Below are positions 19,378 through 36,143 of a DNA stretch of 64,000 nt, in pieces. The notes under the pieces were generated by a model. That model saw only the letters and a list, made by a program, of their open reading frames with translations, was not told the DNA's origin and made no database searches. Numbering within the stretch: position 1 is the stretch's first letter; each line of letters begins with the position of its first letter. The position numbers and the translations under genes were made by a program. The DNA is from Lachnospiraceae bacterium 28-4 (GTDB taxonomy: Bacteria; Bacillota; Clostridia; Lachnospirales; Lachnospiraceae), in assembly GCA_000403275.2 (NCBI GenBank), contig KE159599.1:248001-312000 (forward strand). The letters are read 5' to 3'.

Positions 19378-19389
19378 AATTTTTTATCC

Positions 19390-19420
19390 GCTCCTGTCTG
19401 ACCCACTGTCAGACAGGAGC
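19390..19420 (+). terminator. Hairpin after the ABC-F gene
   Basis: A 12-bp perfect stem (GCTCCTGTCTGA / TCAGACAGGAGC) with a 7-base loop begins 12 bases after the stop codon. The T tract after it is short (TTCC), so it may be a partial terminator or mRNA-processing hairpin. Confidence 0.5.
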
Positions 19421-19452
19421 TTCCATTCACAGGGAAAGGAGACCAATAGGCA

Positions 19453-20376
19453 ATGAATATCGTAGATCTTCACGTACATTCCAACAAATCCGACGGAAGC
19501 CTGACACCCTCCCGCCTGGTAGAGCTTGCAGTGGAAAAAAGACTTTCCGCATTCGCCCTCACCGACCACGATACGACGGAGGGAATTTCCGAAGCCATGG
19601 GCGCGGCGGCAGCGCATAATCTTCGTCTGCAAGAGGGACAAATCCCCCTTCTTCCTTCCGGCGATCCCGCATTACCCCTCGAAGTCGTCCCCGGCATCGA
19701 GTTCTCCACCGAATACAATGGCAAAGATATTCATATACTTGGACTTTATATCGAATATGAAGCTCCCTTTTTCAAGCAGCAGCTTCAGGAGTTCGTAGAC
19801 TCCCGCATTGCCAGAAACCAGAAAATGTGCGCCAATCTACAGGGAGCGGGCATCGATATTTCTTATGAAAAATTACAGGCTGCCTTCCCCGGATCGGTCA
19901 TTACAAGGGGGCACTATGCAAAATATCTTTTGGATCACGGTTATATCAAAAGCATTCCTGAGGCTTTCGAGCGATATATCGGCGACCGCGCCAAATATTT
20001 TGTCCCCAGGGAAAAAGTGACCCCCTCCCAGGCAGTACAACTGATCCTGAAAGCGAACGGTCTGCCGGTTCTTGCCCATCCGCCCCTTTATCATATGAGT
20101 GATGCATCCCTGGACACGCTTGTAAACACTCTGGCCGAAGACGGATTGGCCGGCATTGAAGCCATTTACAGCACTTACCATCAGGCAGAAGAACGCCATA
20201 TGCATTCCCTCGCTAAGAAATACGGCCTGTGCATCAGCGGCGGTTCCGATTTCCATGGTTCCTCCAAGCCCGGACTGGAAATGGCTACAGGCTACGGAAA
20301 ACTGTGTGTTCCTGAAAAAGTTCTGGACGACCTCAAAGCCATACAAAAGAAGAGAAAGGAAATGTATCATGAATAA
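19453..20376 (+). CDS. PHP-domain phosphoesterase (nucleoside bisphosphate phosphatase-like)
   Basis: The PHP metal-binding motifs appear in order: DLHVHSNKSDG, LTDHDT, VPGIEFS, VLAHPP and GGSDFHG. At 307 residues it matches the YciV/RNase AM group, which removes phosphate from 3',5'-nucleoside bisphosphates or trims 5' RNA ends. The active site appears complete. GGAAAGGAG precedes the start. Its stop codon overlaps the start of the next gene (ATGAATAA), so the two are translationally coupled. Confidence 0.9.
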   Translation: MNIVDLHVHSNKSDGSLTPSRLVELAVEKRLSAFALTDHDTTEGISEAMGAAAAHNLRLQEGQIPLLPSGDPALPLEVVPGIEFSTEYNGKDIHILGLYIEYEAPFFKQQLQEFVDSRIARNQKMCANLQGAGIDISYEKLQAAFPGSVITRGHYAKYLLDHGYIKSIPEAFERYIGDRAKYFVPREKVTPSQAVQLILKANGLPVLAHPPLYHMSDASLDTLVNTLAEDGLAGIEAIYSTYHQAEERHMHSLAKKYGLCISGGSDFHGSSKPGLEMATGYGKLCVPEKVLDDLKAIQKKRKEMYHE

Positions 20377-21190
20377 GCAGCCCTATCCACAAATATTTTT
20401 CACCGACTTAGACGGCACCCTTCTGACAACGGACAAAAAAATCACTCCCGCCACCATGGACGCCTTGGGGCAATGGACGGAAGCCGGCAACAAACTGGCT
20501 CTCAGCTCCGGGCGGGCCATCGAAAGCGTAAACCATGTGCGCACCACGCTCGGTTTAGACTTCCCCGGCATGTATCTGATTGGATGCAATGGCAGCGAGA
20601 TCTATGACTGCGACAGCAATACCGTTATTTCCCGCACCGCCCTCACCTTCCCCCAAACCGCCCTTATTATGGAAACTGCCAGGCAGCAGGGGGTTCATTG
20701 CCATACCTATACGGATACCCATATCATCAGCCCTGCCGATACGGAAGAACTCCATTATTACCGGCGCGGCATCCTCACACCGGTTATCATCTGCGAAGAT
20801 GTTCTGAGCGCTCTCGACAAAGAACCCTGTAAATGCATAGCGATTGAAATACATGAAAAAGAAAAATTGGAGCATTTCCGGCAAACCCTGCTTCCTCTCG
20901 TCAAAGATGAGGTCAGCCTTCTATACTCCAACGACCAATATCTTGAAATTTTTCCCGGCTCCTCCGGCAAGGGTTCCGCCATACAAAAACTTTGTTCCCT
21001 GTTAAATATCCCCCTCTCCCGCACCATAGCGGCCGGCGATGAGGCCAACGATATATCCATGCTTCAGGCTGCCGCCCTCGGCATCGCTATGTCCAACGCC
21101 AAAAGCTATGTCAAGCAAGCCGCCAATCTCATAACCGAAACCGACAACGACCACGACGGCCTCGCCCCCATCCTCCTACAATACAAATAA
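20369..21190 (+). CDS. HAD-superfamily phosphatase (Cof type)
   Basis: The 273-residue protein has HAD motif I FFTDLDGTLLTTDKK, motif II LALSSGR and the C-terminal GKGSAIQKL ... AAGDEANDISML block of Cof/YidA sugar phosphatases. The ATG at 20369 was chosen because it overlaps the PHP stop codon, has AAAGGAAA upstream and opens with the family's N-terminus. A longer in-frame start 71 codons upstream would lie wholly inside the PHP gene. Confidence 0.92.
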   Translation: MNKQPYPQIFFTDLDGTLLTTDKKITPATMDALGQWTEAGNKLALSSGRAIESVNHVRTTLGLDFPGMYLIGCNGSEIYDCDSNTVISRTALTFPQTALIMETARQQGVHCHTYTDTHIISPADTEELHYYRRGILTPVIICEDVLSALDKEPCKCIAIEIHEKEKLEHFRQTLLPLVKDEVSLLYSNDQYLEIFPGSSGKGSAIQKLCSLLNIPLSRTIAAGDEANDISMLQAAALGIAMSNAKSYVKQAANLITETDNDHDGLAPILLQYK

Positions 21191-21252
21191 CCCCTCATCA
21201 TCCCCCACTCCCCCCTCATACCGCATCCTCAAACCCAACTGGAACCCAACTG

Positions 21253-21278
21253 AAAAATGCCCGAAAACGGGCATTTTT
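21253..21278. terminator. Bidirectional terminator between convergent genes
   Basis: AAAAATGCCCG and CGGGCATTTTT form an 11-bp stem with a 4-base loop, giving a T run on either strand. It serves the HAD gene from the left and could also stop leftward transcription past the chemoreceptor fusion gene. Confidence 0.85.
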
Positions 21279-21280
21279 CG

Positions 21281-21364
21281 GTGTGAGAAAGACTTGCCAA
21301 AGCAAGTCTTAGTACTTCTTAGCGAAATGCCCTCTGGCATGAGCTCTAGAAGTACTTCTCACAC
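21281..21364. repeat. Cloverleaf-like inverted repeat
   Basis: An outer stem (GTGTGAGAA 21281-21289 / TTCTCACAC 21356-21364) encloses two hairpins: AAGACTTGC / GCAAGTCTT and AGTACTTCT / AGAAGTACT with an inner ATGCC / GGCAT. The outer right arm includes the stop codon of the chemoreceptor fusion gene. A related terminator-plus-GTGTG motif occurs at 52.87-52.91 kb. Confidence 0.6.
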
Positions 21365-23305
21365 TCCCCCTCCGGCCTTCACCATATTATCCAGCAGCAC
21401 ATACTGCCCTACCGGCACGGCTCTTTCCACGTCGCCGGATTCTATGAACTCTCTTTGCTGTATTTCATAAAATCTGGCCACGTCGCCTTTTTTAGCGCCC
21501 ACGCTCACAAAACCCGACGTCAGCCACTGGGCATCTTTTCGCTGTTCATATGCGCTCTTCTTATCGATAGACGTAACCTCCCCGATCCAGTCCGCAACTT
21601 TTCTCACATTCTCCTCTATTGCCCTGTAATTCATCCCGCCATAAATAGCCCGTGTAAAGCGCAGCACCTCACCGGGATGTTCCTTTACATATCCGGGCAG
21701 GGCGATCCATGAAGAGATCGAGGCCGTCTTGCTGCAATAAGTCATATTATTCGCAATCACCGCCACATCATTGCCCAGCTGCTTTAAGATCTCCAGCGTA
21801 TACGGAGACCAGACGGCACAGGCATCGATCCGTCCCTGTTTCATGGCTTCCAGCACTTCTTCCGGCTTCATATTGACGATATCCACGTCCTGGAAAGACA
21901 TTCCCTCCGTTTCCAGCGCAATACGCAAAATCGTTTCGCTGGACGCGTGTTCCACATTTCCGATCCTCTTTCCCCTCAAGTCCGCGATCGTTCTTACTTC
22001 ATGCTTTCTGTTTCCGATGATCGCTTCCGCATTGGATAAATGGGACATTGCCACAATACATGCCCGCCCCTTGATACAGAACTTATGGGCGCCGTTGCCG
22101 ATATAACCGAAGTCTATCTTTCCCTCTTCCATCGCTTTTATGATCTCCAGCCCGTTTCCATAGGCATAAAGCTTTACCTCATAATTCTCCCTGTCAAAAT
22201 ATCCCATCCTGATTGCCGGAATAACAGAGCAGAGACTGCCGTAATTAGGCATATAGGCCACCCGGATTTCTTCCTTCTTCCTCTTCTCCTTCTTCTTTTC
22301 CCCCGTCAGTCCGCCGAAGCAAATCCCTCTCATCTCATCATAAATATTCGTCAGCGCTAACGATTTCGCCCCAATGCCAATCGCATTGCTCACAATACTT
22401 TTAAATCTGGAAACAATATTCTCCGTTGCCGAGTAATTGCTGTCACTAAGCTTTTCCAAGGATTCCATGTTTTCAATAATAAAGCTTTTCTCCTGATCCA
22501 GTTCCCGCGAATTCGTTTCAATCTGCTTTACCTTCTCCGCCACATCCTGAATCAGACGATTCGTCTGCGCCACCATAGCATCTGTTTTTCCCAAACTCTC
22601 CGTCTGCTTTTTAAAAGCATTCTGCACTCTTTGAATATTATCCACAGATTCATTGGATTTCGCTTCCAAAGTAGCGATGATCTTTCCGATCGCTTCCGCG
22701 CTTTGTCTGCTTTGTTCCGCCAGGGCGCGTATTTCCCCCGCTACGACTGCAAATCCCTTCCCAGCTTCGCCCGCCCTCGCCGCCTCTATGGATGCATTCA
22801 GGCTAAGAAGGTTCGTTTTGCTGGCAATGCTGTTAATCATATTAATCGCCTGTTGAATCTCCTGGCTCGCCTTATTGGTTTCCATCGTATTCACCGCGAT
22901 TTCCTGAATACAATTTTCGGTATCGGCATTTTCTTCTATCAGATCATGAAAAATCCCTATGACTTCCTCGTTATTATTTAACATGCTCTGAGTAGCCATA
23001 TTCAGTTCTTCCACATAACCGCCTGTTTTTTCGATGGCCCTTCCCATCTTTACCGTGATCTGGTTAATCTCTTTTGTCCTGGACGCCAGCTCGCTATTGC
23101 CATCGCTGATCGTATCGATGGAATTGCCTACCGCATTAATAGCCACATTGGTATCATCCGCAACATAGTTCATCTCCATAACAGTTTTATTCAGACTGCC
23201 CAGCTTGCTCTGTATGCCATTTACCAGGTCTCCCTGTATCTCCTGCCGCGCGATCCATCTGTCGTTTTTTATTTCTTCCTGTTTTTTACTCGCGAACAAT
23301 TTCAT
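21359..23305 (-). CDS. Cytoplasmic chemoreceptor signalling domain fused to a NitT/TauT-type substrate-binding domain
   Basis: Residues 1-315 are a chemoreceptor coiled coil without any membrane helix. The conserved hairpin tip is at 160-190 ([38 protein letters not shown] in part). After a Lys-rich linker (336-345), residues 346-648 form a periplasmic-binding-protein fold that is clearly paralogous to the lipoprotein encoded at 25693: both share [10 protein letters not shown] or [10 protein letters not shown], GYIGxGAHK, ACAxWSP, YEIQ and a YVxLDxMVxAG end. Neither a signal peptide nor a transmembrane segment is visible, so the binding domain should face the cytoplasm. It lies third in an operon after the kinase and regulator. 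It may sense the imported ligand and signal through CheA/CheW or as a scaffold; no che genes are in the window. Confidence 0.9.
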
Positions 23306-23354
23306 AGAATACCTCTTTCAACACTTTTTCAGCAAATTCTCCAATCTAAAATCC

Positions 23355-24047
23355 TTATAAAAAAAGATGTGTAATATTCAAATCACTGATTATTTTTATC
23401 ACTTCTTTTGTCCTGTTACAGCCGAATTTTCTTAAAAGCCCTTTAATTTGTGTTTTTACCGTTACCGTTTCCACACATCTTTCTTTCGCAATCTCTTTTA
23501 TCGTTTTTCCTTCCAGAAGCTTCTTGATCAGCTCTCTTTCCGTCGCCGTCAGGCGGGATATATTATGGATAAAGAATAAAAGGCTTTTCTCACTTTTCTG
23601 GAGCCTCACATATTCCTGCATCACAACGTCGTGAACCTTTCTCTCCATAATCGGATTCCCTGCATAGGCGCTGCGGATATGAGCCAATATCTCCTCTTCC
23701 CCGCACCCTTTTACAATATAATCGACCGCTCCGGCTCCCATCGCCGTTAAAATCATATCGTTTGTATCATGCACTGTCAGAAAGATCACGTTTGCATTTT
23801 CCTGCCGCTCCCGAATCTGCTCTGTCGCGGTAATTCCTGCATTGAGATTTTCCATTTCTATATCCATAAGAATAATATCAAATTCCTTCTCTTTTGCCAG
23901 CTCTACGATTCCTTTGCCGCTCTGAGCCGTCCCCACTACCTCCATATCATCCTGACTGTCGATAAGTTCACACATGTCCTCCAGCAACAGCCGAATGTCG
24001 TCGGCAATCATAATCCTTATCTTTTTTCCGTCTTTTTTTTCTTCCAT
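23355..24047 (-). CDS. NarL/FixJ-family response regulator
   Basis: Residues 10-130 form a receiver domain with IADD, the phospho-acceptor Asp in IILMDIEM, a conserved Thr in FLTVHD and Lys in YIVKG. Residues 165-225 form a LuxR-type helix-turn-helix (LTATERELIKKLLEGKTIKEIAKERCVETVTVKTQIKGLLRKFG). It probably receives phosphate from the histidine kinase 16 bases upstream and controls the transport locus and possibly its own promoter. AGGAAG precedes the start. Confidence 0.93.
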   Translation of the reverse strand: MEEKKDGKKIRIMIADDIRLLLEDMCELIDSQDDMEVVGTAQSGKGIVELAKEKEFDIILMDIEMENLNAGITATEQIRERQENANVIFLTVHDTNDMILTAMGAGAVDYIVKGCGEEEILAHIRSAYAGNPIMERKVHDVVMQEYVRLQKSEKSLLFFIHNISRLTATERELIKKLLEGKTIKEIAKERCVETVTVKTQIKGLLRKFGCNRTKEVIKIISDLNITHLFL

Positions 24048-24063
24048 TGCTGCTTCCTGATGC

Positions 24064-25563
24064 TCAGGCAGACATATATTTTGGTAATAAAATATAAAAA
24101 CTGCTGCCTTTTCCTTCCTTGCTCTCTACCCTCAAGCTTCCCAAGTGCCCCTTTACGATCGCCCGCACATAATACAGCCCCATTCCCCAATTATGGTTTC
24201 TGTTTTTGCTCGTATAAAAGGGTTCAAATATCTTTTTCATCATCGCTTTCGGGATTCCTACCCCATTATCCTTAATTTCAATGACCGTATAAAGCCTCTC
24301 ATCATGGCTCAGCAAAGAGATCCTTCCTTCCTTTCCCCTTTCCGCCGCTTCTACCGCATCCTGCGCGTTCACCAGCAGATTATAGATCGCTTCGCATAGA
24401 TGGGCTTTATCCGCCAAAACTGCCGCATCGGATTCCAACGCCACTTCCACAGGTATATCCGGGCATTTTTTATGGAACCGCTCCAAAGCGTTTGCCACGA
24501 TCTCTTCCATCCGGCAGACTACCATAAAAATAGAGTTGGATTTTACCGAGCGGTAAAGTTCTTCCATACGCTCTAACAACGATTCATTAATGTCGCCCAG
24601 CACGGTTATGTATTCCTGCATCTTGCGTATGTTTTCTTCTTTGCTCATATCCATTCCGCCCAGCCGCTTAAAAATAACACGGTTAGCCAGAAGCTGGTTT
24701 TTTGTGCTGTGGACAAATACCAGCGTTCCTACCCGGGCCGTATTGTATTTCCGTTCCAGCACTACCTCTTCCATATCATTTGCATAATTCTCCTGCGTAT
24801 AACGCAACAGGCTGATAAAACCTAAAATACCGCAGACAATATTGACAAACATCAGAAGATAGTATGCCTTAATATCCCATACATGCTGCAAATAACCGAT
24901 TCCCCTCCGCCACTTATAAGTGGCATTGTAAAACCGGTATACCTGCCCCGGATCCTGTCCGCAATAAAGCAGATACAGGCCGGAAATGGCGATCATACAA
25001 ACCACGATCAGACTGAACTGACGGCGGAAAAAAAACATCGTTATCGAAAAATACTCATGGATCAACAAAATCAGCGCAATCGATATATACATCAATATCC
25101 AGAAATAAGAAAACTCCGACAGGATATCCTGCAGCCCTGGATTTTGCCTTGTGATCATCTTATAAACGCCCGGATAATAGACCACCAAAGAGACAAACGG
25201 CAAAATCACGGTAAGTTTTTTTATCAAGGGATCGCGGCGAATCACGGAAATCATGGAATACCGCATAGCGATCTGCAAAAGGAAGAGCGGAAACAGATAT
25301 CTTCCAAGAGCTATCATATAACCAATCACATTTAACGGGATCACCAGATATTGTATCTTCGTCTTTAATTCCATGGATACGAAAAGAAACTCCAGCATTT
25401 CTCTGGAATAACCGCCTTTCTTTGCCACAAAAATCAGAATCCCGCAAAATTGCAATATCAGGCTGATACACATCCCTGAAAGAAAAAAGGACTCCATGCT
25501 TCTTTTTCGGTACAGCACAAAACAAGAAGCAATTAAAAAAGCTCCCAGCAGTAAAACCAGCAT
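24064..25563 (-). CDS. Membrane histidine kinase
   Basis: Residues 1-255 contain seven or eight hydrophobic helices with no large outer loop, so the sensor is in the membrane itself or in a partner protein. The phospho-acceptor is likely His 285 in LVFVHSTKNQLL. The ATPase domain has N-box ... YNLLVNAQDAV (Asn 399), DNGVGIP (432-438), FEPFYTSK and NWGMGLYYV. It is followed by the response regulator and the chemoreceptor fusion. AGGAGGGAAGG precedes the ATG at 25563; a longer start would run through this ribosome binding site. A TTGAGA/TATACT promoter lies upstream. Confidence 0.92.
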   Translation of the reverse strand: MLVLLLGAFLIASCFVLYRKRSMESFFLSGMCISLILQFCGILIFVAKKGGYSREMLEFLFVSMELKTKIQYLVIPLNVIGYMIALGRYLFPLFLLQIAMRYSMISVIRRDPLIKKLTVILPFVSLVVYYPGVYKMITRQNPGLQDILSEFSYFWILMYISIALILLIHEYFSITMFFFRRQFSLIVVCMIAISGLYLLYCGQDPGQVYRFYNATYKWRRGIGYLQHVWDIKAYYLLMFVNIVCGILGFISLLRYTQENYANDMEEVVLERKYNTARVGTLVFVHSTKNQLLANRVIFKRLGGMDMSKEENIRKMQEYITVLGDINESLLERMEELYRSVKSNSIFMVVCRMEEIVANALERFHKKCPDIPVEVALESDAAVLADKAHLCEAIYNLLVNAQDAVEAAERGKEGRISLLSHDERLYTVIEIKDNGVGIPKAMMKKIFEPFYTSKNRNHNWGMGLYYVRAIVKGHLGSLRVESKEGKGSSFYILLPKYMSA

Positions 25564-25605
25564 TGGCCTTCCCTCCTTTCCCTCCCCGCCACCGCCAATA
25601 TGCGT

Positions 25606-25642
25606 TTGAGAGTAGTATACCATAAAGGCAGACTACTCTCAA
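25606..25642 (-). promoter_or_regulatory. Promoter of the kinase-regulator-receptor operon inside an inverted repeat
   Basis: On the minus strand, TTGAGA (25637-25642) and TATACT (25614-25619) are exactly 17 bases apart. A perfect 11-bp inverted repeat, TTGAGAGTAGT and ACTACTCTCAA, covers both the -35 and the -10 region. A protein bound to both half-sites would cover the promoter, so repression or autoregulation is likely. It can also fold as a hairpin after the upstream binding-protein gene. Confidence 0.65.
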
Positions 25643-25692
25643 TCCATGTTACATTATTTCAAAACGTTTTTTTGTGTTTTGTGGTTTCCTGA

Positions 25693-26820
25693 TTACTGTC
25701 CTGCTTCTACCATGACATCCAGCATTACATAATCGGCAACTGCCGGAACAGGATCAACCTCTACCGCACCTGCATCCACGAAGCCCTGTTTCTGGATTTC
25801 ATAATATTTTTCCACTTCGCCATTTGCTGCGCCTTCGGAAACTTCCTTACCTGTCAACCAGTCAGCATCGCCTCTCTGTGCGTATACGCTGTCGTAATCC
25901 TGGGCTACCTGAGTCGCCACATATTCGGATACTTCATCATAATGATCATCTGCCGCATAGTCCATTGCTTTGAATAAAGCCTTAGTAAACCTTACAAGGA
26001 TGTCTCTGTTTTCTGCCGCATAAGAAGGCATTACGATCCAGCTTGCAAGGGATACTGTCTTATCGGAGAACGACATATTATCGGTCAGTTTGGTTGCATC
26101 GCTCATTTCTTCCAAAATCTTCAGGCTGTTCGGAGACCATGTTGCACAAGCGTCTACGCCGCCGGAAAGCATTGCTGTCACGATTGCGGAAGCATCCATA
26201 TCCACTGCTTCAATGTCATCCATGGACATGCCAACGGAATTCAGAGAGTCTACAAGGATAGTTTCGCTGGAACTTCCGGAAGAATATGCTACTTTTTTAC
26301 CTGCCAGATCTTCTACCTTTGCGATTCCAGGTCCGCCGATCAGAGCGTCACCGTTAGAAATATGGGAAAGTGCAAAAATAGATGCCCGTCCGTTGATACA
26401 AAGCTTATGTGCGCCCTGTCCGATATATCCGATATCGATGCTTCCGGACTCCATAGCTGCAATGATAGTAGGACCATCTGCAAACTCAACCATTTCTACC
26501 GTAATGCCTACTTCTTCAAAGAAGCCTTTTTCCTTTGCAGTCAATACTGACCAAAGACTTCCGTAGTTAGGCATATAAGCGATATTCAGAGTAACAGGAT
26601 CATAACTTTCCGTCGCTGCTGCTTCTTCTGCAGGAGCTGCTTCTTCTGCGGGTGCTTCCTCTTCAGCAGGAGCCGCTTCTTCTGCAGGAGCTGCTTCCTC
26701 AGCTGCAGGAGCCGCTTCTTCCGTAGGTGCTGCCGCCGGTGCGGGTTCCTGGGTATTGCCACAGCCGACAAAGGTTGCTACCATTGCCAGAGTCAACAGC
26801 AAACTTAATACTTTTTTCAT
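25693..26820 (-). CDS. ABC transporter substrate-binding lipoprotein (NitT/TauT family)
   Basis: The protein starts with a lipoprotein signal (lipidated Cys 20 in TFVGCGN) and a repetitive Ala/Pro/Glu spacer (about residues 25-70) that lifts the domain off the membrane. The binding domain follows ([33 protein letters not shown]), typical of the nitrate/sulfonate/taurine/thiamine-precursor group. GGAGG precedes the ATG. It is the last gene of the permease-ATPase-binding protein operon. Ligand unknown. Its domain is duplicated in the chemoreceptor fusion. Confidence 0.95.
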   Translation of the reverse strand: MKKVLSLLLTLAMVATFVGCGNTQEPAPAAAPTEEAAPAAEEAAPAEEAAPAEEEAPAEEAAPAEEAAATESYDPVTLNIAYMPNYGSLWSVLTAKEKGFFEEVGITVEMVEFADGPTIIAAMESGSIDIGYIGQGAHKLCINGRASIFALSHISNGDALIGGPGIAKVEDLAGKKVAYSSGSSSETILVDSLNSVGMSMDDIEAVDMDASAIVTAMLSGGVDACATWSPNSLKILEEMSDATKLTDNMSFSDKTVSLASWIVMPSYAAENRDILVRFTKALFKAMDYAADDHYDEVSEYVATQVAQDYDSVYAQRGDADWLTGKEVSEGAANGEVEKYYEIQKQGFVDAGAVEVDPVPAVADYVMLDVMVEAGQ

Positions 26821-26899
26821 TTTTTATCCTCCTTATGATAAGCTGATTTATAGATAAACGCCCACCGCAAAAATTGAGCGGACGGTTTAACTATCCTTT

Positions 26900-27691
26900 T
26901 TATTTCCTTACTTCCAGGTATTCCTGGTATACCTGGCTCCAGATATGGTTCTTCAGTTCCAGGAATTCAGGAGCCATCTTCGTTTCCTGTGTACGGGGAT
27001 ATGGAATATTAATATCCACGATCTCTTTAATCCGCCCCGGCCTTGCGCTCATAATAATAACTTTCTGTGCCAGGATAATTGCTTCGTCCACGTCATGAGT
27101 AATAAAGAAACAGGTCTTCCTTTCTTTTTCCCATGTCTCCAGAAGCTCCGACTGCAGCTGCGTCCTCGTCTGCGCATCCAGAGCCCCGAAAGGCTCATCC
27201 ATCAGAAGCACCGAAGGATTTACCGCATATGCCCTCGCAATAGCCACCCTCTGTTTCATACCGCCGGACAGTTCCTTCGGATAATGGTCGAGGAAGTCTT
27301 CCAGCTGCACCATTTTTATGTATTTCATAGCCTTTTCTTCCGCTTCCGCACCTTTGATGCCCTGAAGGTTCAGGCCGAACATTACATTCTTCTTCACCGT
27401 CATCCATGGGAATAAAGCATACTGCTGGAAGACAACGCCTCTCTCCGTCCCTGTGCCTACCACTTCCTTGCCGTCGCAGTACACTTTGCCCGAGGAAGGC
27501 TCCAGCAGACCGGCGATAATATTGAGCAGCGTAGACTTTCCGCAGCCGGAAGGGCCTACCACGCAGATGAATTCATTCTCATAAATATCGAGGCTTACGC
27601 CGTTTAATGCAATCATTTCCCCGTTGCGGGAATTATATATCTTTTTTACATTATCAATTTTTACTTTTATATTTCTCTCTTCTCCTGCCAT
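26900..27691 (-). CDS. ABC transporter ATP-binding protein (SsuB/TauB type)
   Basis: The 263-residue protein has Walker A GPSGCGKST, signature LSGGMKQRVAIARA, Walker B VLLMDEPFGALD and the switch His in FFITHDVDEA. Close overall form to SsuB/TauB/ThiZ ATPases. It energises import through the adjacent permease. Its start overlaps the end of the permease gene by 25 bases. Confidence 0.96.
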   Translation of the reverse strand: MAGEERNIKVKIDNVKKIYNSRNGEMIALNGVSLDIYENEFICVVGPSGCGKSTLLNIIAGLLEPSSGKVYCDGKEVVGTGTERGVVFQQYALFPWMTVKKNVMFGLNLQGIKGAEAEEKAMKYIKMVQLEDFLDHYPKELSGGMKQRVAIARAYAVNPSVLLMDEPFGALDAQTRTQLQSELLETWEKERKTCFFITHDVDEAIILAQKVIIMSARPGRIKEIVDINIPYPRTQETKMAPEFLELKNHIWSQVYQEYLEVRK

Positions 27692-28446
27692 CCCGTCAGC
27701 TTCCTTTCTAATAGTTTAATTACTTTTTCTACCGTAATACCGATGATACCGATGATGATAATATATAACAACATCGGCTCCGACTCAAAACTGTTATTCA
27801 AGGAGCGAATACGCATCCCCAGACCGGCAACGGCGCCTGTGGATTCCGCCGCGATCAGCGTCGTCAGGGCAACGGATGCCCCCAGCCTTACCGCCGTCAT
27901 AATAAACGGGAGAGTCGCCGGAGCAATAACTTTGAGAAAGATATCCTTATCCGTAGCGCCAAGCACTCTGGCCGCTTTGATCAGCGTTTCGTCGATATTG
28001 ATAACGCCCTGGTAGATCGTAATCGTCATAATCAGGAAAGTAGCAATCGTAATAACTATAATCTGAGGTTTTCTGCCTACGCCCGCAGAAATAACAATCA
28101 ACGGAACATACGCCAGAGGAGGAATGTTTCTGACAAACTGGATCCAAGGCTCGATAATATTCCTTACCGGCCGGTACCATGCCATCAAAATAGCGGTGGG
28201 CAGAGATAATATAAAGCCAAGGACAAAACCTGCGCTTACGGAAATCAGGCTGCTCTGGATATCTTTCCAGAAGACCCCTCTTCCGATCATCGTTTTCACT
28301 GCCCCGAACGTCACCACTATGTTCGGGAAGCTTCTTGCCGTCTTAGGATTCAGGGACAGCAAATACCATAAAATCATAGCTGTCAGAAAAGAAATCAACA
28401 GCCATACTTTATTCGGGATTTTTCCACCTTTACTTTTTTCTTTCAT
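27667..28446 (-). CDS. ABC transporter permease (SsuC/TauC type)
   Basis: The 259-residue protein has about six membrane helices and the EAA loop region (EWAAxxLGA equivalent: IKAARVLGATDKDIFLKVIAPATLPFIMTAVRLG), as in NitT/TauT permeases. It is the first gene of the transport operon, before the ATPase and the binding protein. AAAGGAAGAC precedes the start. Confidence 0.95.
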   Translation of the reverse strand: MKEKSKGGKIPNKVWLLISFLTAMILWYLLSLNPKTARSFPNIVVTFGAVKTMIGRGVFWKDIQSSLISVSAGFVLGFILSLPTAILMAWYRPVRNIIEPWIQFVRNIPPLAYVPLIVISAGVGRKPQIIVITIATFLIMTITIYQGVINIDETLIKAARVLGATDKDIFLKVIAPATLPFIMTAVRLGASVALTTLIAAESTGAVAGLGMRIRSLNNSFESEPMLLYIIIIGIIGITVEKVIKLLERKLTGWQEKREI

Positions 28447-28473
28447 CGCAGTCTTCCTTTCTTTTTGTTTTTT

Positions 28474-28511
28474 TGTACATATTTTGAATATATTATACTA
28501 CAAAATGTACA
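28474..28511 (-). promoter_or_regulatory. Transport-operon promoter with inverted repeat
   Basis: TATAAT (28492-28497, minus strand) lies about 50 bases before the permease ATG. No good -35 is present, as in activator-dependent promoters. An imperfect inverted repeat, TGTACATATTTTG and CAAAATGTACA, surrounds the -10 and could bind the neighbouring NarL-type regulator. That link is inference. Confidence 0.45.
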
Positions 28512-28519
28512 GAAAAAAT

Positions 28520-28540
28520 AGTATGAAATTTTTTCATACT
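28520..28540. terminator. Small palindrome upstream of the transport operon
   Basis: AGTATGAAA, TTT, TTTCATACT: a 9-bp perfect stem between the transport operon promoter and the aldolase stop codon. It may be an operator or a weak terminator. Confidence 0.35.
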
Positions 28541-28594
28541 GATCATATTCAACAAAAAGGAAGACCGCGATTGTTTCAACCGTTCCATCTATTC

Positions 28595-29752
28595 CTAAAT
28601 ACCGGCTTTTTTATACCTTTCGGCCATTTCATCCAAAGTTACGCGCTCTACCAACGGTGCTTTTCCTACGGAGCCAAACTGCACGATCAGCGTTCCGACC
28701 ACTTCTTTTACGCCGGCCTCGATACATCCCGTAATGGCCGCAACGTCTTCGTCAGGAACCACGCCTTTCATCAAAGTTTCCATAATAGGCGTCAGGAATA
28801 CCCTTGGATCCACCTGCGTCTTATTTTTCTCCAGCAGTTCATAGATCCCCCCGATGGACGGGCTGTTCTGTTTTTCCGGATATTTTGCAAAAAATTCTTT
28901 CATGTTTCTCGTCACCGCCAGGCGGATATCCGTATCCACATTAATTTTCCCGATTCCGCATGGAATCGCCTGTTTCAATTCTTCTACGGAAATGCCGTAT
29001 GCGTTCTGTACATCGCCGCCCAGGGCGTTGATTTCATCCACGATATATTGGGGAACTGTAGAGGAACCGTGGGATACGAGTACTCCAAAAATATTTTCAT
29101 GGTTCATGCATTCTTTAATCGCTATCGCGATTTCCTTCCGAAGCTTAACATTCTTGCCCTTGGAAGGCCCGTGCATGGTGCCGTAAGAAATAGCCAGGCA
29201 GTCCACTCCCGTCTTGCGGAAAAATTCCACGGCATTCATCGGATTCGTATAAGTGGAAGATGCCGCAAACACATGATCCTCCACGCCGGCGAGTACGCCC
29301 AGTTCCCCCTCTACCGTGATGCCCCTTTCGTGAGCATATTTTACCACTTCCCTTGTCAGCTCAATATTTTCCTCAAAGGGAAGGGAGGAACCGTCTATCA
29401 TAACCGATGTATAACCGCCGTCGATCGCCGCTTTCACCGAATCGAAATCCTTGCCATGATCCAGATGAAGGACTACCGGAATGGGAGAGTCTTCCCCATA
29501 TTTCTTTACTGCCGCGGCGATATTCTTCGCTCCTGCTTTCTTATCCTCCAGAGTCGCGTTCAAAAAGTCGGTTCTGCCCCCCATAAATCCATTGGCAAGA
29601 TCCGCTCCCTGCAGGATCGCCGCCGAACGGAACATTTCATGTACTTCGATCACTGCCTTTGCCTGTGCCACCGCATTGACATTAAAAGCGCCCTGCGCAA
29701 AATGATATTTATCCGTTGTTTCCAGCAACGGTCTTAAAGGTATTAACGCCAT
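28595..29752 (-). CDS. Class II aldolase (fructose-bisphosphate/tagatose-bisphosphate type)
   Basis: The 385-residue protein has class II aldolase motifs: LHLDHGKDF (zinc His and Asp), EGELGVLAG, ISYGTMHG (zinc His) and VSHGSS. It cleaves a ketose-1,6-bisphosphate-type substrate to dihydroxyacetone phosphate and an aldehyde. It is longer than the usual 285-310 residues because of extra C-terminal helices. It ends an operon that also encodes phosphofructokinase and a TPI-like protein, so the three could carry a hexose phosphate to trioses. Confidence 0.88.
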   Translation of the reverse strand: MALIPLRPLLETTDKYHFAQGAFNVNAVAQAKAVIEVHEMFRSAAILQGADLANGFMGGRTDFLNATLEDKKAGAKNIAAAVKKYGEDSPIPVVLHLDHGKDFDSVKAAIDGGYTSVMIDGSSLPFEENIELTREVVKYAHERGITVEGELGVLAGVEDHVFAASSTYTNPMNAVEFFRKTGVDCLAISYGTMHGPSKGKNVKLRKEIAIAIKECMNHENIFGVLVSHGSSTVPQYIVDEINALGGDVQNAYGISVEELKQAIPCGIGKINVDTDIRLAVTRNMKEFFAKYPEKQNSPSIGGIYELLEKNKTQVDPRVFLTPIMETLMKGVVPDEDVAAITGCIEAGVKEVVGTLIVQFGSVGKAPLVERVTLDEMAERYKKAGI

Positions 29753-29763
29753 GTCTTATCTCC

Positions 29764-30918
29764 TTATGATTCTTTGTTTACCTGTTTTCCTCTTACAAAT
29801 GTATCCTTTACGTTGTTTTCTTCATCCAGGATAACGAGATCCGCATCTTTTCCGTCAGCGATCGAACCCTTTTTGCCAAAAACACCGATCAGTTTCGCCG
29901 GATTCACGGTCAGGAGCTGAAGCACTTCTTCTATGGGCCTTCCTGTAAACTTCATAATATTCTTCAGCGCCTGTCCGGTCGTCAGCGTACTTCCCGCGCG
30001 CACTCCGTTGGAAGCCAGCTTCGCATCGCCGTCCACAACCACAACATCATTCACACCCAGTTTATAGTTGCCGTCGGGAAGCCCTGCCGCCATAATGGAA
30101 TCGGTAATCGCCACCACTCTGTCGAGTCCCTTTGTTTTGATCAGCAGACGCACTACGCCCGGATGCAGATGACGCCCGTCGCAGATTGCCTCGCAATAAA
30201 TATCGGACTCCATCGCCGCCCCCATGATCGCCGGAAAATGCTGGTGCAGCAGTTTCATAGCGTTAAAGATATGAGTACAGCTTGCAGCGCCGTTTTCAAT
30301 CGCTTTCATGGAAGTATCGTAATCTGCCCCGGAATGCCCGATGGCCACCACGATTCCAAGATCCCTGACCGCCGGAATCGCATCCACGATTCCTTCGATT
30401 TCAGGGGAAACCGTCAAATACCTGATATTTCCTTCCGCCGCTTCCTGATATTCCTTTAAAAGCTCCACATCCGCATCACGAAGAAGATGTTCCGGCATAG
30501 CCCCTTTGAATTCTTTTGCAAGGAACGGGCCTTCCAAATGGATGCCAAGGAGATCCGCGCCGTCATTTTCCAGCTTTTTATGCTTTTTGAACTCATCGAT
30601 GCACCACAAAGTCTGCTCTTTCGTATCCGTCAGCACGGAACAAAGCCAGGAAGTGGTTCCCTGGGTCGCCATAAAATGTCCTATTTTTCCGAGTTCCTCT
30701 GCCGTCGCCGCATTTACATCCACGCCTACGGCTCCATGGGTATGTATATCGAGGAACCCCGGGACTACCTTTTTCCCTTCCGCATCATATACCTTTGCCC
30801 CGCCTTCCAAATCTGCGTCTTTCGGCAGGATACGTATGCATCCCCCCTCAACGCCTATTGTTTTTTCCTGAAAACTCCCATCCAAAAATACTTTCCCATT
30901 TACAATATACTGTTCCAT
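29764..30918 (-). CDS. nagA: N-acetylglucosamine-6-phosphate deacetylase
   Basis: The 384-residue amidohydrolase has DIHTHG, the metal-binding Glu in LGIHLEGPF, AIGHSGADY, HIFNAM and the catalytic Asp in AITDSIMAAG. It removes acetate from N-acetylhexosamine-6-phosphates. The start at 30918 has GGAGGG just upstream; a longer start 18 codons upstream would include the pseudoknot leader. It lies between the aldolase and the NagB-like gene. Confidence 0.95.
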   Translation of the reverse strand: MEQYIVNGKVFLDGSFQEKTIGVEGGCIRILPKDADLEGGAKVYDAEGKKVVPGFLDIHTHGAVGVDVNAATAEELGKIGHFMATQGTTSWLCSVLTDTKEQTLWCIDEFKKHKKLENDGADLLGIHLEGPFLAKEFKGAMPEHLLRDADVELLKEYQEAAEGNIRYLTVSPEIEGIVDAIPAVRDLGIVVAIGHSGADYDTSMKAIENGAASCTHIFNAMKLLHQHFPAIMGAAMESDIYCEAICDGRHLHPGVVRLLIKTKGLDRVVAITDSIMAAGLPDGNYKLGVNDVVVVDGDAKLASNGVRAGSTLTTGQALKNIMKFTGRPIEEVLQLLTVNPAKLIGVFGKKGSIADGKDADLVILDEENNVKDTFVRGKQVNKES

Positions 30919-30929
30919 TTTCCCTCCAT

Positions 30930-31001
30930 TTCCACGCAGCTCTCGTCCAACTTTAAAACCACGCGCGGGCAAGTTTGTGGATGCTGCGCAAATACAAACT
31001 T
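30930..31001 (-). promoter_or_regulatory. Pseudoknot-forming leader element, copy 2
   Basis: On the minus strand AAGTTTGT and ACAAACTT pair around a loop with TTGCGCAGC. The loop can pair with GCTGCGTGG, which directly precedes AAATGGAGG, the nagA ribosome binding site. Compared with copy 1, a G-C pair in the second helix has become A-T, a compensating change. The segment between the helices differs. Lies between nagB-like and nagA genes of one operon. Confidence 0.55.
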
Positions 31002-31016
31002 ATTCCTTCCCCGTTT

Positions 31017-31835
31017 TTATTCCGGAAGATTTGCCACAAACTCCGTAAACTTAAGATTGATGTCCGGGTGGTTCTGCAACAGGCTCACCGGAAAATGAGC
31101 CGTCGGCTCGCCGTGTGCCGTGCGGCGCACCACGCTCCTGTGCCAGTCGCGGAAACAGCCCAGGCGGATCTTTCTGGCATGGGAAATCTCGTAAATACCA
31201 ATCGTAATGCAGTAATGGGGCATATCGTCCAGCGCGCCGTTCAAATCGCCGATAGAGTTCACCGCCCTGGTTTCTTTGGAAATATCCAGCACTCTTGTTT
31301 TCAGCGCAAGGAATTCCTCCCCTGTCAGCTCGTCCTGCGGCTCATTAAACGCCACGTGTCCGTTGATCCCGATTCCTCCGAAAGCAATATCCACGCCGCC
31401 CAGCTTTTCAATCAGTTCAGGAATATACCCTACATTTTTCGGATCCGGGAACACCCTTTGCTCCTCCGGCATAACCAGCTCCGGCTTTATCTTCGTATAA
31501 ACAGCCCTGTCCATAAACCCCCGGAAACTCAACTTATGCTCTTTATCAATCCACTCCTTGTCATCCGTCAAATATTCATCCATATTAATAAACCACACGT
31601 TTTTCAAATCCACGTTCTTTTCATTCACCATATCCACAAAATAAGGATACTGGCCCACCGGCCCTACCGGGCAGATAAACACCGTCTTCTCGCCCAACGC
31701 GTTCTTCCTCTCGATCTCTTCCACCATTTCCTCCGCCATCGACTGGAACACCTTCGCATTATCTTCCATTACGATCAGCGGAATCTTCGGATTTTTCAAC
31801 AATTCCTCTTTTGTGTAGTAATAATAATCATGCAT
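31017..31835 (-). CDS. nagB: Glucosamine-6-phosphate deaminase/isomerase family protein
   Basis: The protein has WFINMDEYL (base catalyst Asp) and GGIGINGHVAFNEPQDEL (active-site His and Glu), the signatures of NagB, which turns glucosamine-6-phosphate into fructose-6-phosphate and ammonia. At 272 residues it fits. The N-terminal part is divergent from housekeeping NagB, so it may use a different amino-sugar phosphate. It precedes nagA in an operon. Confidence 0.85.
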   Translation of the reverse strand: MHDYYYYTKEELLKNPKIPLIVMEDNAKVFQSMAEEMVEEIERKNALGEKTVFICPVGPVGQYPYFVDMVNEKNVDLKNVWFINMDEYLTDDKEWIDKEHKLSFRGFMDRAVYTKIKPELVMPEEQRVFPDPKNVGYIPELIEKLGGVDIAFGGIGINGHVAFNEPQDELTGEEFLALKTRVLDISKETRAVNSIGDLNGALDDMPHYCITIGIYEISHARKIRLGCFRDWHRSVVRRTAHGEPTAHFPVSLLQNHPDINLKFTEFVANLPE

Positions 31836-31870
31836 CTTTCCTACTTCCTTTCCTTTATATTTATTATGTA

Positions 31871-32071
31871 GTTGCGAAGCTGCAAGTTATGGGAATATTC
31901 TGATAATATATTCCCTGAAAATCCAACTGCGCCGAACATTCCGCCAGGCCTGGAAAAACAAAAACACTCGGGCAGAGGCCCTCCTGTTTTACAGTCCTGG
32001 CTCCATGGCGCAAAAAGGATTTTCATGAAATATATTATCAGAATATTCAGCAAATTTACCTCCCCCGCAAC
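31871..32071 (-). repeat. Large hairpin repeat, family 2, copy 1
   Basis: Arms GAATATTCTGATAATATATT (31893-31912) and the exact complement (32029-32048), plus TGAAAATCC / GGATTTTCA, enclose a core that contains GCGCCATGGAGCC read on the minus strand. TTGCG ends lie about 20 bases outside each arm. Core orientation is opposite to copies 2 and 3. It sits upstream of the NagB-like gene. Confidence 0.8.
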
Positions 32072-32111
32072 TAATTAATATTTCTATTAAACCAATATTT
32101 CTATGATGAGG

Positions 32112-32312
32112 AATTATGAAATCGATAGCCTTGCCGGATATTCTGTCCATCTGTTCCATGAAAATCCTTTTGCGCCATGGAGCCAGAACCGTAAAACAGG
32201 AGGGCCTCTGCCCGAGTGTTTTCGTTTTTCCGGGTCTGGTGGAATGTCCGGCGCAGTTGGATTTTCATGGAACAGATGGACAGAATATCCATACACAGCC
32301 TCTCAATTCACA
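32112..32312 (+). repeat. Large hairpin repeat, family 2, copy 2
   Basis: A perfect 32-bp stem (32136-32167 with 32259-32290, beginning GGATATTCTGTCC) encloses a core with TTTTGCGCCATGGAGCC, GGAGGGCCTCTGCCC and GGAATGTCCGGCGCAGT. The core matches copy 1 in reverse orientation over about 90 bases, while the outer stem sequence differs. Together copies 1 and 2 fill the 490-base gap between the LarA-like and NagB-like genes. Confidence 0.8.
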
Positions 32313-32327: not shown

Positions 32328-33779
32328 CTATCCGTTGTAAACTTCGTCTTTCATCATCAGATGCACCGCGCTTTTCTTAAAGGTCAGCGGCAGAGCCAAA
32401 ATATTCGGATTCTCCCCGACATATTTCTTCTTCGCATCCTCCAGCGCTTCCTCTATCGTCGCCCTCGTCTTCAATCCCATGCCTCTCGCATATCCCGGTT
32501 CCTGAGCGCCGCAAATATAAATGGCGGAAGTATTCATCTCCGCGATATGTCCACAGGCAATCATGGAAAATCCGTGGAACGGATGGAAAGCGTTGGTATA
32601 ACGGTACTTGCGGATGTATTCTTCGTTTGTCGCAAAATACTCGCCCAGTCTGTTCATATCCGGCAGTGTATTCATCTGATCTTTCTGGAACATGTCGTAC
32701 ATTTCCCTCAAATAAGGCCATAATTCATCATGGAAATAGCCGTTACAGATCGAAGCACAAATAATCACGCAGTTATCGCTCATGATCCTCTTATGGCGGA
32801 TCACCTGTGCGGAAAGCGCCTGCATCATCATGATCGGATTCGTCCCCATTCCCTCGCCATAGTGGAAAAACTGAGGCATGCCGAATATCATCACATCATA
32901 TTTTTTCTCTGCAAAAGGTACATAAGTCCTCTTGTCAGCCACTTTCCATGACTCGGGCTGCATTTCTTTCGCATAGCCGGAGAAAATAGCGATCTGTCTG
33001 GAAGAAGTATCCAGGACGGCGTCACAGCAGAAGAATTTTTTACCCATGCATTTCTCCATGTGCTGTCCGATCTCATCGAACTTCGTCCTCATCAGAGAAT
33101 GACCGCTTACCGGCACAAAGTCCTCCCTATGCATTACCTTCGGCACATGGTGGGAAGCGATGGACCTCCAATGGGTAATGCCCGTCGCGCAATGCTTGTA
33201 TCCGCCGGAATACCCGCCATAAGGATTGCCTTGCGTATGCCCGATCAAAATCGCCACGTCGCTGTCGTATACATATTTATTCATCAACACCGGGTCGCCC
33301 CTGTCCGTCAGCCCAAGATCTACCAAATGGTCATAATCTTCGCTGTCATGGTTGATGATCTGCCCGCAGTACCAGAACTCCTCGAACAATTCTTTCCCTA
33401 GTACGCCCCGTATTTCCTGTTCCGTGTTTTTTCTGTGCAGACCATTGGAGCAGATCAAAAGAATGTCTTTCTTCTCCACGCCCGCCGCATACAGTTCTTT
33501 TAAAATCAGTTTGATCGAAACCTTCCTGTGGGAAGTCGGCTGTTCGCCGCCTTTTACCCTGTCAGGAAATACGATCGTTACTTTGGAGCCCTTTTTCGCC
33601 AGCTTGGAAAGAGGCTCCATCCCCATAGGATTCCTCAAAGACTCCAGCGTCTTAGCCTCCAGTTCTTCCTCCGGAATATACGGCGGGTCAGCCACCGTCA
33701 CTCCCGGAATAAACACATCCGTACTTTCCGGCAGCTCCGCCGCCATCGTTCCTTGTCCATACTCAAATTCCAGTCTCAT
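32328..33779 (-). CDS. LarA-family (lactate racemase-like) nickel-pincer protein
   Basis: The 483-residue protein has CSNGLHRKNT and the segment GGYSGGYKHCATG, where LarA carries the Lys that binds the nickel-pincer nucleotide, and a further His pair nearby (IASHHVPK). Known LarA homologues racemise or epimerise alpha-hydroxy acids. Genes for the cofactor (larB, larC, larE) are not in the window. Its place among sugar genes suggests a sugar-acid or hydroxy-acid substrate; this is inference. Confidence 0.85.
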   Translation of the reverse strand: MRLEFEYGQGTMAAELPESTDVFIPGVTVADPPYIPEEELEAKTLESLRNPMGMEPLSKLAKKGSKVTIVFPDRVKGGEQPTSHRKVSIKLILKELYAAGVEKKDILLICSNGLHRKNTEQEIRGVLGKELFEEFWYCGQIINHDSEDYDHLVDLGLTDRGDPVLMNKYVYDSDVAILIGHTQGNPYGGYSGGYKHCATGITHWRSIASHHVPKVMHREDFVPVSGHSLMRTKFDEIGQHMEKCMGKKFFCCDAVLDTSSRQIAIFSGYAKEMQPESWKVADKRTYVPFAEKKYDVMIFGMPQFFHYGEGMGTNPIMMMQALSAQVIRHKRIMSDNCVIICASICNGYFHDELWPYLREMYDMFQKDQMNTLPDMNRLGEYFATNEEYIRKYRYTNAFHPFHGFSMIACGHIAEMNTSAIYICGAQEPGYARGMGLKTRATIEEALEDAKKKYVGENPNILALPLTFKKSAVHLMMKDEVYNG

Positions 33780-33809: not shown

Positions 33810-34646
33810 TTATTTACCCATGTATGTCCGTATAATTTCCAAATATTCCTCAGGATAAAAACCGATATCTCCCTGGAATCTTGTCAAAGCGATCAGGCCG
33901 CCGTCGATCTCCGGTATGGATGCCAGCATCGCCGCATTGTCCACTTTCAGGCCGCCGCCATAAGCAACCGGCAGACCTCCGGTGCGTTCCTTCACAAAAC
34001 GGGCGATCATCTGGATATAATCCTTCCCCGCCGGCGTTTTTCCCGGCCCGATGGACCAGATCGGTTCATAGGCGATCGCCACTTTGGAAGTATCCACATC
34101 TTTTAAGCCGATTTCCAACTGTTTTCCTAGCACTTCCTGCCATCTCTCCTGCTCTTCCTCGCTCTCGCCGATGCAGTATAGCACGGTAAGCCCCGCTTCC
34201 ACCGCCGCTCTGACTTCCTGATTCAGTATCCGGTTCACCGCATCCGTATCTCCGGCTCCAGCCTCCGCCATGATACCCAATTTATCCCTCCGCTCCTCGC
34301 AATGTCCGATCAAAACGCTGGAACAGCCTAAAGCTTTCACTGCCTTCCCCGTCCTATTCGCAGTAAAAGCACCAAAATTACCGCCTGCCTTCACATCTTC
34401 CCTATGTATCCCTTGGGAACCGATTGCCAGATTCCTGCTTCCATCCATTGCTCCTGCGGCGGAAAGCAGATGCGCCTCCGGCAGATACATAACAAATTCC
34501 ACCTCATCTTCCCCATATTCCGCCAGAGCCTTCTTCGTATTCTCCACAATATACGCCCCCCATTCCTTCACCGGCGCGATACTGTTCACCCCTCCCATCT
34601 CTCTTGGAATATCAAATCTCTTCAAATTCAAATAAATATGTTTCAT
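33810..34646 (-). CDS. Triosephosphate isomerase-like protein
   Basis: The catalytic His (VLIGHCEERRD, where classical enzymes have IGHSERR) and Glu (AYEPIWSIGPGK) are present, as is YGGGLK near the phosphate site. The N-terminus reads LNLKRFDI rather than GNWKMN, although the Lys is retained. At 278 residues it is longer than typical TPI. It is probably an operon paralogue, perhaps for a modified triose or tetrose phosphate. Confidence 0.82.
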   Translation of the reverse strand: MKHIYLNLKRFDIPREMGGVNSIAPVKEWGAYIVENTKKALAEYGEDEVEFVMYLPEAHLLSAAGAMDGSRNLAIGSQGIHREDVKAGGNFGAFTANRTGKAVKALGCSSVLIGHCEERRDKLGIMAEAGAGDTDAVNRILNQEVRAAVEAGLTVLYCIGESEEEQERWQEVLGKQLEIGLKDVDTSKVAIAYEPIWSIGPGKTPAGKDYIQMIARFVKERTGGLPVAYGGGLKVDNAAMLASIPEIDGGLIALTRFQGDIGFYPEEYLEIIRTYMGK

Positions 34647-34878: not shown

Positions 34879-36069
34879 CTATATCCTGCTTCTTAACACC
34901 TGTCCCGCCTCTTCTTTAAAACTGATCATTTCCGGCAGATCCCCGTCAATCAAAGGTTTACACCACCGGGCAAACGACTCCGTAATATCGTTTCCTCTCT
35001 CGTTGATATAATCTTCCGGCATCACCCGCTCGTTTAACATCACCTCTTCGATCGGTATGAGCGGAGTCTCTATTCCATATTCCTCTCCGCCTTTCCTCCG
35101 AATGCCTACCATAACGCCCGTATGCCCTGCTACGGCCGCCTTTACCGCTTCTCTTCCGACTAAAACCGCCTCTTCCCTGTCCACCTTTGACTGCAGCAGC
35201 ATGGAAGTTCTTCCGCAAAGCCCCGGCTTCTCGCTCCTCGCCTTGATACCCAGTTTTTTAATAACCAGTTCGGCCAGGTATGCGCTTACATCCCCATAAT
35301 AAACCGCCCTGTCCGTTTTGAAAATCGGCGGCACGATCGACTCTCCTTTTTCATTGCGCAGCCCTTCGCTGACAACCACCACTACGCCGCCCAGCTCATC
35401 ATAAAGTCTTTTGACGTCTTCCAGGAACTCTTCTTCTTTGAAATTGCGCTCTGGAAGGTATACCAGATGAGGCGCATCGCCCGGCTCTTTCCTCGCCAGA
35501 ACCGAAGCCGCCGTGATCCACCCCGCATTCCGTCCCATAGCTTCTATCACACATACGTGGATCGGCAGAGACTTCACATCCGCGCCCACTTCCTTCGTTA
35601 CGGTAGCGATATATTTTGCCGCGCTGGGAAAACCGGGCGCATGATCTATAATCGAAATATCATTATCCATTGTTTTCGGAATACCGACTACATAAATCCC
35701 CTCATCCGCACACACCTTGCTCACCTTGCCGCAGGTATCCATGGAACCATTTCCTCCGTTAAACAGCACATATTTAATATCGTTTTTCTTCAGGATGTCC
35801 ACCATCGCCTCATACTGTTCCTGTTCCAGCGGAAACCTTGAAGAGCCGATTGCCGTCCCCGGCGTCTGCAGCAGCAGTTCTATCTTCTCATCTTCCAATT
35901 CCCCCATATCCAGAAAATTTTCCGTCAGAATCGCCTCGGAACCACCGATCGCACCATATATCTTCTTTATATCAGGATTCTTCTGCGCTTCCCTTATTAC
36001 CCCATATAAAGAAGCGTTCAAAACTGCGGTTGGACCGCCTCCATGCACTACCAGCAAATTACCTTCCAT
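34879..36069 (-). CDS. 6-phosphofructokinase (PPi-type signature)
   Basis: The protein starts EGNLLVVHGGGPTAVLNAS and has LFNGGNGSMDT, the catalytic VGIPKTMDNDI and EAMGRNAGW. The Lys in PKTxDND is typical of pyrophosphate-dependent enzymes, while ATP enzymes have GTxDND. It phosphorylates fructose-6-phosphate or a related ketose phosphate. First gene of the operon. The ATG at 36069 was chosen over an in-frame TTG three codons upstream that abuts AGGAG. Confidence 0.9.
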   Translation of the reverse strand: MEGNLLVVHGGGPTAVLNASLYGVIREAQKNPDIKKIYGAIGGSEAILTENFLDMGELEDEKIELLLQTPGTAIGSSRFPLEQEQYEAMVDILKKNDIKYVLFNGGNGSMDTCGKVSKVCADEGIYVVGIPKTMDNDISIIDHAPGFPSAAKYIATVTKEVGADVKSLPIHVCVIEAMGRNAGWITAASVLARKEPGDAPHLVYLPERNFKEEEFLEDVKRLYDELGGVVVVVSEGLRNEKGESIVPPIFKTDRAVYYGDVSAYLAELVIKKLGIKARSEKPGLCGRTSMLLQSKVDREEAVLVGREAVKAAVAGHTGVMVGIRRKGGEEYGIETPLIPIEEVMLNERVMPEDYINERGNDITESFARWCKPLIDGDLPEMISFKEEAGQVLRSRI

Positions 36070-36143
36070 ACCAGCCAATACTCCTTTCTCTTTCTATTCA
36101 TAATAGTAGCACATTCCTTCCGTTTCCCGCTATAATTTTTACC

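Follow-up and report, generated by a model that had tools for sequence, protein, structure and literature searches.

In the usual view, what guides bacterial movement is the supply outside or the cell's general energy state. Could a chemoreceptor read, inside the cell, what one importer has brought in? The question is raised by a gene at 21359-23305 on the minus strand of the window, the 64-kb stretch of Lachnospiraceae bacterium 28-4 analysed here. The gene joins a chemoreceptor signalling hairpin, of the kind found in methyl-accepting chemotaxis proteins (MCPs), to a substrate-binding protein (SBP) domain, and it lies beside the genes of an ATP-binding cassette (ABC) importer whose own binding protein is a paralog of that domain. 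If the explanation favored below is right, taxis would follow the uptake of one nutrient, by way of the importer's binding fold inside the cell.

The fusion protein and its two halves

The coordinates and frame given by the original prediction, which was made from the letters of the window alone, proved exact. The parts of the protein are as follows.

21359..23305, minus strand: MCP-SBP fusion, 648 aa, a predicted cytoplasmic chemoreceptor with a C-terminal TauA/SsuA-like binding domain
22310..23236, minus strand: signalling hairpin, residues 24-332, with limits placed symmetrically around the tip; no HAMP match and no transmembrane helix
22274..22309, minus strand: variable linker, residues 333-344, with 0 of 12 columns invariant in eight orthologs
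21371..22273, minus strand: NMT1/TauA-like binding domain, residues 345-645, placed by Pfam, alignment and AlphaFold2 (AF2)

The union of a chemoreceptor hairpin with a C-terminal NitT/TauT-type domain, as predicted, was borne out by Pfam matches above cut-off for both halves: MCPsignal (PF00015) at residues 126-284 (E 2.8e-31, 109.1 bits against a cut-off of 34.6) and the NMT1/SsuA-like domain (PF09084) at residues 362-560 (E 6.9e-22, 78.8 bits against 20.5). The cut-off of the SsuA subfamily model TIGR01728 was not reached (111.3 vs. 163.5). The tip motif NLLSLNA begins at residue 165, within the 160-190 first proposed, and 43 of 55 tip columns were invariant across the eight orthologs. Alignment of the hairpin to the cytoplasmic portion of membrane MCPs extended almost to their end, and the arm length of the hairpin fits the 44H class. 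The MCPs of the window's own genome fell mostly into two groups by tip-to-end length, about 142 and 169.

No HAMP domain was matched by Pfam, a simple hydropathy scan found no membrane helix, and the N-terminus has no hydrophobic stretch such as the signal peptide and lipobox of an exported importer binding protein would give. The fusion, binding domain included, is thus predicted to be cytoplasmic, as had been proposed. Four other MCPs of the same genome had no predicted helix; two of them end in CZB domains (L097:3809-5260 and L104:1431-2795).

The fused binding domain aligned with the importer lipoprotein encoded at 25693-26820 over 301 residues (44% identity, E 6e-86), and the alignment includes the shared motifs by which the two had been called paralogs. 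An AF2 model of residues 341-648 was good (pLDDT 91.5, pTM 0.86, 16 rows). A search of the PDB with this model ranked TauA and SsuA best by E-value (top E 1.7e-19), and the CmpC regulatory domain (9uak, 9uai) and NrtBCD (8wm7) were among the 50 fold matches listed.

Conservation and distribution

Full-length orthologs were detected in seven contigs (L001-L007) at 64-91% identity; six of these are labelled Lachnospiraceae and the seventh "uncultured bacterium". Together with the window and two further genomes (G273 and G288), 10 species carry the fusion as one uninterrupted frame whose domains come in a constant order, L001, L002 and L003 being counted as G315, G399 and G410. The survey for MCP and NMT1-type proteins that the original prediction had proposed therefore found an importer-linked gene family, and both outcomes it had named as fatal, a fusion unique to one assembly and a misassembled junction of two genes, fall.

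Samples of the family, the genus and the order gave fused frames of about 650 aa in 4 of 397, 4 of 16 and 2 of 392 genomes, respectively. At the level of class, a full-length profile matched both halves in 1 of 391 genomes, the window's own (at most three candidates per genome were scored, which limits sensitivity), and at the level of phylum a profile of the fused domain did so in 1 of 398, again the window's own (at most five candidates scored). The five samples overlap and all lie within Bacillota.

In a tree of 50 of the 76 binding domains extracted (rows with identical last 200 residues were dropped), the 10 fused domains lay on one side of a branch with support of 99/100 and a long stem of 0.70. 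The ratio of nonsynonymous to synonymous substitution rates (dN/dS, NG86 method) was 0.05-0.08 where it was computable, in three of four pairs for the hairpin and all four for the binding domain, with synonymous sites saturated in some pairs. Across the eight orthologs, 159 of 301 binding-domain columns were invariant. The rates indicate that purifying selection acts on both halves and, as judged from sequence, this is a real, rare and selected gene fusion.

Proposed mechanism

As a whole, the fusion is best explained, with a probability of roughly 0.6, as a cytoplasmic chemoreceptor that gauges an imported substrate or a close metabolite and signals through CheW and CheA. An importer binding domain would have been duplicated, lost its export signal and become attached behind a full-length MCP hairpin. 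A build-up of the imported substrate, or of a metabolite close to it, in the cytoplasm would close the two-lobed domain, and closure would act on that end of the hairpin which in other receptors leads to HAMP and the membrane helices. CheA activity would be altered through CheW at the hairpin tip, and swimming would be biased by the success of taking up and using the nutrient. Ligand binding, cytoplasmic sensing, CheA output and the sign of the response are the parts of this scheme that we infer.

CheW-family genes were present in all nine carrier genomes searched (every carrier except L004), and flagellin genes in all six carriers searched. A single CheA-sized CheW match was found in G288 and in G1102 (the L005 genome), which suggests that the fusion can do without a second system. 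The window's own genome has two such matches and probably two chemosensory systems; CheA-sized frames lie at C1:721606 and C1:1533161, with CheW-sized frames adjacent.

The strict canonical methylation motif was found in 20 of 25 other MCP genes of the window's genome (21 of 26 rows, one gene occurring twice), these 25 being the genes recovered by the tip pattern from 31 other MCP places listed. Its absence from seven of eight fusion orthologs (L002 has it) suggests weak or no CheR/CheB adaptation, and the receptor may report a level, not a gradient.

Several observations weigh against the explanation as a CheA-coupled internal gauge. The loss of the methylation motif could also mean an unusual function. 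The association with CheW was not significant (6/6 carriers vs. 17/28 chosen non-carriers, one-sided p 0.075, uncorrected for kinship); the flagellin counts were equal to these (6/6 vs. 17/28), though the two sets of genomes were not identical. The 28 non-carriers, all with a related SBP, were chosen from the family, genus and order scans, with the weakest matches, including G153, left out. The AF2 model of the full-length protein was poor (pLDDT 61.6, pTM 0.34, eight rows) and too weak for interdomain geometry. Finally, TauA Gln30 and Asp205 correspond to Met and Ser in the fusion.

The importer locus and its putative pathway

The fusion gene is the last in a co-oriented run that begins with a phosphofructokinase gene (36078) and ends at 21359. 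The remaining genes, listed from the fusion upward, are:

23355..24047, minus strand: NarL-type response regulator, 230 aa (Pfam Response_reg and GerE)
24064..25623, minus strand: multi-helix histidine kinase, 519 aa as called (Pfam HATPase_c only)
25693..26820, minus strand: importer substrate-binding lipoprotein, 375 aa (Pfam, alignment, hydropathy)
26900..27691, minus strand: importer ATPase, 263 aa (nearest NCBIfam models SaoA and TauB, both below cut-off)
27667..28446, minus strand: importer permease, 259 aa (nearest NCBIfam models SaoP and TauC, both below cut-off)
28595..29752, minus strand: ketose-bisphosphate aldolase family, class II (TIGR00167 over cut-off)
29764..30972, minus strand: NagA-type deacetylase (TIGR00221 over cut-off)
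31017..31835, minus strand: NagB-like protein, divergent (NCBIfam below cut-offs, no Pfam match)
32328..33779, minus strand: LarA-like nickel-pincer racemase/isomerase (NCBIfam below cut-off)
33810..34646, minus strand: triosephosphate-isomerase-like protein (NCBIfam below cut-off)
34879..36078, minus strand: phosphofructokinase, diphosphate-dependent subfamily model (NF010675 over cut-off)

Only 49 bases separate the regulator from the fusion, and the close spacing of the last six genes makes a single operon from permease to fusion likely. A divergent LacI-type regulator (36208-37227) adjoins the phosphofructokinase end. The linkage to ABC genes proved to be conserved: permease, ATPase and SBP genes were linked to the fusion in 10/10 carrier loci. 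The multi-helix kinase and NarL-type regulator were likewise as predicted; the kinase has six membrane helices by hydropathy scan (at least eight at a laxer threshold) and a candidate phosphorylated histidine, H305, picked by eye. The lipoprotein has one N-terminal hydrophobic stretch by the same scan, followed by a repetitive Ala/Pro/Glu linker. The importer was not filed as a Sao type, the Sao models scoring below cut-off.

Relatives, too, have NagA, NagB-like, phosphofructokinase, aldolase, triosephosphate-isomerase-like and LarA-like genes near these importers, and the run at 28595-36078 (minus strand) looks like a dedicated amino-sugar-to-triose route. Among the genes annotated, which covered part of the window, there was no separate hexose kinase or phosphotransferase system gene. 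Some loci add a DUF4838 gene (one was checked by Pfam). Amino-sugar-type genes combined with a sulfonate-type binding fold suggest as substrate an amino sugar that is anionic, through sulfation or otherwise; N-acetylglucosamine (GlcNAc)-6-sulfate would be an example, a guess rather more likely to be wrong than right. The literature search found no sulfated GlcNAc pathway of this kind. A bolder form of the explanation, in which a class of cytoplasmic chemoreceptors uses a domesticated importer binding protein as its ligand domain, has lost its canonical methylation sites and steers gut Lachnospiraceae by the internal level of an amino-sugar nutrient or intermediate (probably anionic, perhaps sulfated), falls somewhat short of even odds.

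In one genome without the fusion (G099), an apparently transmembrane MCP gene, judged by eye, lies beside the same importer/NagA locus (L046:85-1734), hinting that the pathway may recruit chemoreceptors more than once. An IS4-type transposase-like open reading frame, judged by eye from its translation, lies upstream of the region (15996-17318, plus strand). A riboswitch scan of 19000-38500 gave nothing at gathering score. Promoter-like sites (31 vs. 22.6 +/- 4.8 in shuffles) and terminator-like sites (19 vs. 13.5 +/- 3.6) came from scans that were not used as evidence; one terminator-like site (21281-21261, minus strand) lies just beyond the end of the fusion.

Alternative explanations

The strongest alternative, unlikely in our judgment, overlaps with the favored explanation and is sharper: the fused domain would read a downstream intermediate or waste product, not the imported substrate, and would report flux or a bottleneck. 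It turns on the binding pocket. In TauA, according to PMC6906117, Gln30 and the main chain of Gly61, Gly79 and Thr132 hold the sulfonate; Glu106, Thr132 and Asp205 bind the amine. By our own numbering and alignments near 20% identity, Gln30, Gly61, Gly79, Thr132, Glu106 and Asp205 map to fusion residues M352, G385, G403, S455, E427 and S531. The equivalents of the main-chain anion-holding positions (G385, G403 and S455) do not vary across the 16 rows of fused and free domains, and the absence of a ligand pocket, which would have told against the original prediction, is not supported. The importer clade has Asp at the E427 position and Ala at the S531 position. An anion-holding frame of the TauA type thus appears to be kept and part of the shell changed. 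Taurine itself is disfavored as ligand, since Gln30 and Asp205 are replaced by Met352 and Ser531.

Four of the 10 positions named in that paper (N384, E427, I530 and S531) were fixed differently in fused and importer domains, a point in favor of this alternative, but other fixed columns differed as often (47/132). In this comparison, eight fused rows were set against six from the importer clade, with L002 and L005 contributing no free domain; 142 columns were fixed in both sets, and of these 51 differ and 91 agree. An apparent enrichment of pocket differences (8/14, p 0.076) was discarded, because four of the 14 positions had been chosen after they were seen to differ. The differences may merely tune affinity, and the mapping carries the limits of its alignments.

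The same alternative gains from two carriers, L002 and L005, that have the same fused domain and in which the sole other homolog detected is a divergent importer SBP (52-54% identity to the window's free SBP); the L002 genome (apparently G399) is only 65% complete, and a matching importer could escape detection there. A DUF4838 gene adjoins this divergent clade (L002:5589-7463, the copy checked by Pfam, and L005:15889-17682). In 6 of the 10 carrier loci the next gene after the fusion is of TauE/SafE type, which also counts in favor of this alternative; positions include L038:15432-16226, L004:12114-12902 and L047:7483-8271, and the family was assigned by clustering, with Pfam run on the L038 member. 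In the window's genus a homolog (53-55%) occurs elsewhere in 4/4 genomes. With four of 10 contact positions differing and two carriers having another importer clade, sequence alone does not settle whether the ligand is the imported one.

Output to the linked kinase and regulator, with control of importer expression in place of CheA signalling, is improbable. The order permease-ATPase-SBP-kinase-regulator-fusion in 7 of 10 carrier loci (kinase in 9/10, regulator in 8/10; in L038 the fusion follows the LarA-like gene) would suit it. Of 17 non-carrier loci, nevertheless, seven have the kinase and regulator together with the importer, although two of these kinases are only distantly related (27-30% identity), and four of the seven genomes (G217, G149, G062 and G244) have no CheW match. 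In L005 the fusion lies between the aldolase and a TauE-type gene with no kinase or regulator within 21.9 kb. These patterns make CheA the likelier output, as does the highly conserved MCP tip, and the kinase/regulator pair most likely works without the receptor. The original model, an internal gauge steering motility or the kinase, accordingly keeps its gauge, the simplest reading given the NrtC/CmpC precedent described below, whereas steering of the kinase is not supported. The comparison with outside supply that this model included is conjecture.

Equally improbable is a binding domain that has become a ligand-free structural or regulatory remnant, serving as a dimer or membrane-proximal anchor. 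The missing methylation motif in seven of eight orthologs would be in keeping with it. Against it stand purifying selection on the binding domain like that on the hairpin, the 91 columns that are invariant and identical with the importer clade, and the good AF2 model. Nothing was found to favor a false junction of two genes through assembly or annotation, and the single open frame and constant domain order in 10 species refute it.

Comparison with known systems

Because the inside and outside domains are paralogous and encoded together, whether a cell follows an outside gradient or an internal level becomes directly testable for the favored gauge. The original prediction knew of no described system with this order of parts, and our literature search agrees: no intracellular MCP joined to an SBP-type domain was found, including in the accessible portions of PMC9602780, PMC6978683, PMC8547431, PMC11349869, PMC6603209, PMC10613068 and PMC6906117, in a search that covered subscription journals thinly. 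Many ligand-binding domain (LBD) clusters of PMC8547431 may be of unknown types, according to that paper, and an unnamed MCP-SBP entry is possible there. Cytoplasmic receptors with a C-terminal sensor and cytoplasmic NMT1-type domains each have a precedent; none was found for the combination.

The nearest receptors in architecture are the CZB receptors of the TlpD type, which likewise have no transmembrane helix, an MCP hairpin first and a C-terminal sensor domain. The sensor of the fusion, however, is a two-lobed SBP fold encoded with an importer, and no CZB match was found in it. Transmembrane chemoreceptors stimulated by SBPs also couple an importer's binding protein to chemotaxis; in these (PMC9602780) the SBP is an extracytoplasmic protein of its own that binds to an external LBD, whereas the SBP fold studied here belongs to the receptor and is predicted to lie inside the cell. 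MtpA, a cytosolic, metabolism-linked MCP of Methylobacterium, shares the steering of taxis by an internal metabolite, but only an MCP signalling domain, and no SBP domain, was detected in it (PMC10613068). For the binding domain, the closest parallels are NrtC and CmpC of the cyanobacterial nitrate and bicarbonate ABC importers, which have a cytoplasmic NMT1-type domain related to the importer's SBP, as the fusion is predicted to have; that domain is thought to bind solute inside the cell (PMC11349869 and PMC6603209). In NrtC and CmpC the domain forms one protein with the ABC ATPase and has its role in regulating transport, whereas here the ATPase (263 aa) is separate and the domain is joined to a chemoreceptor.

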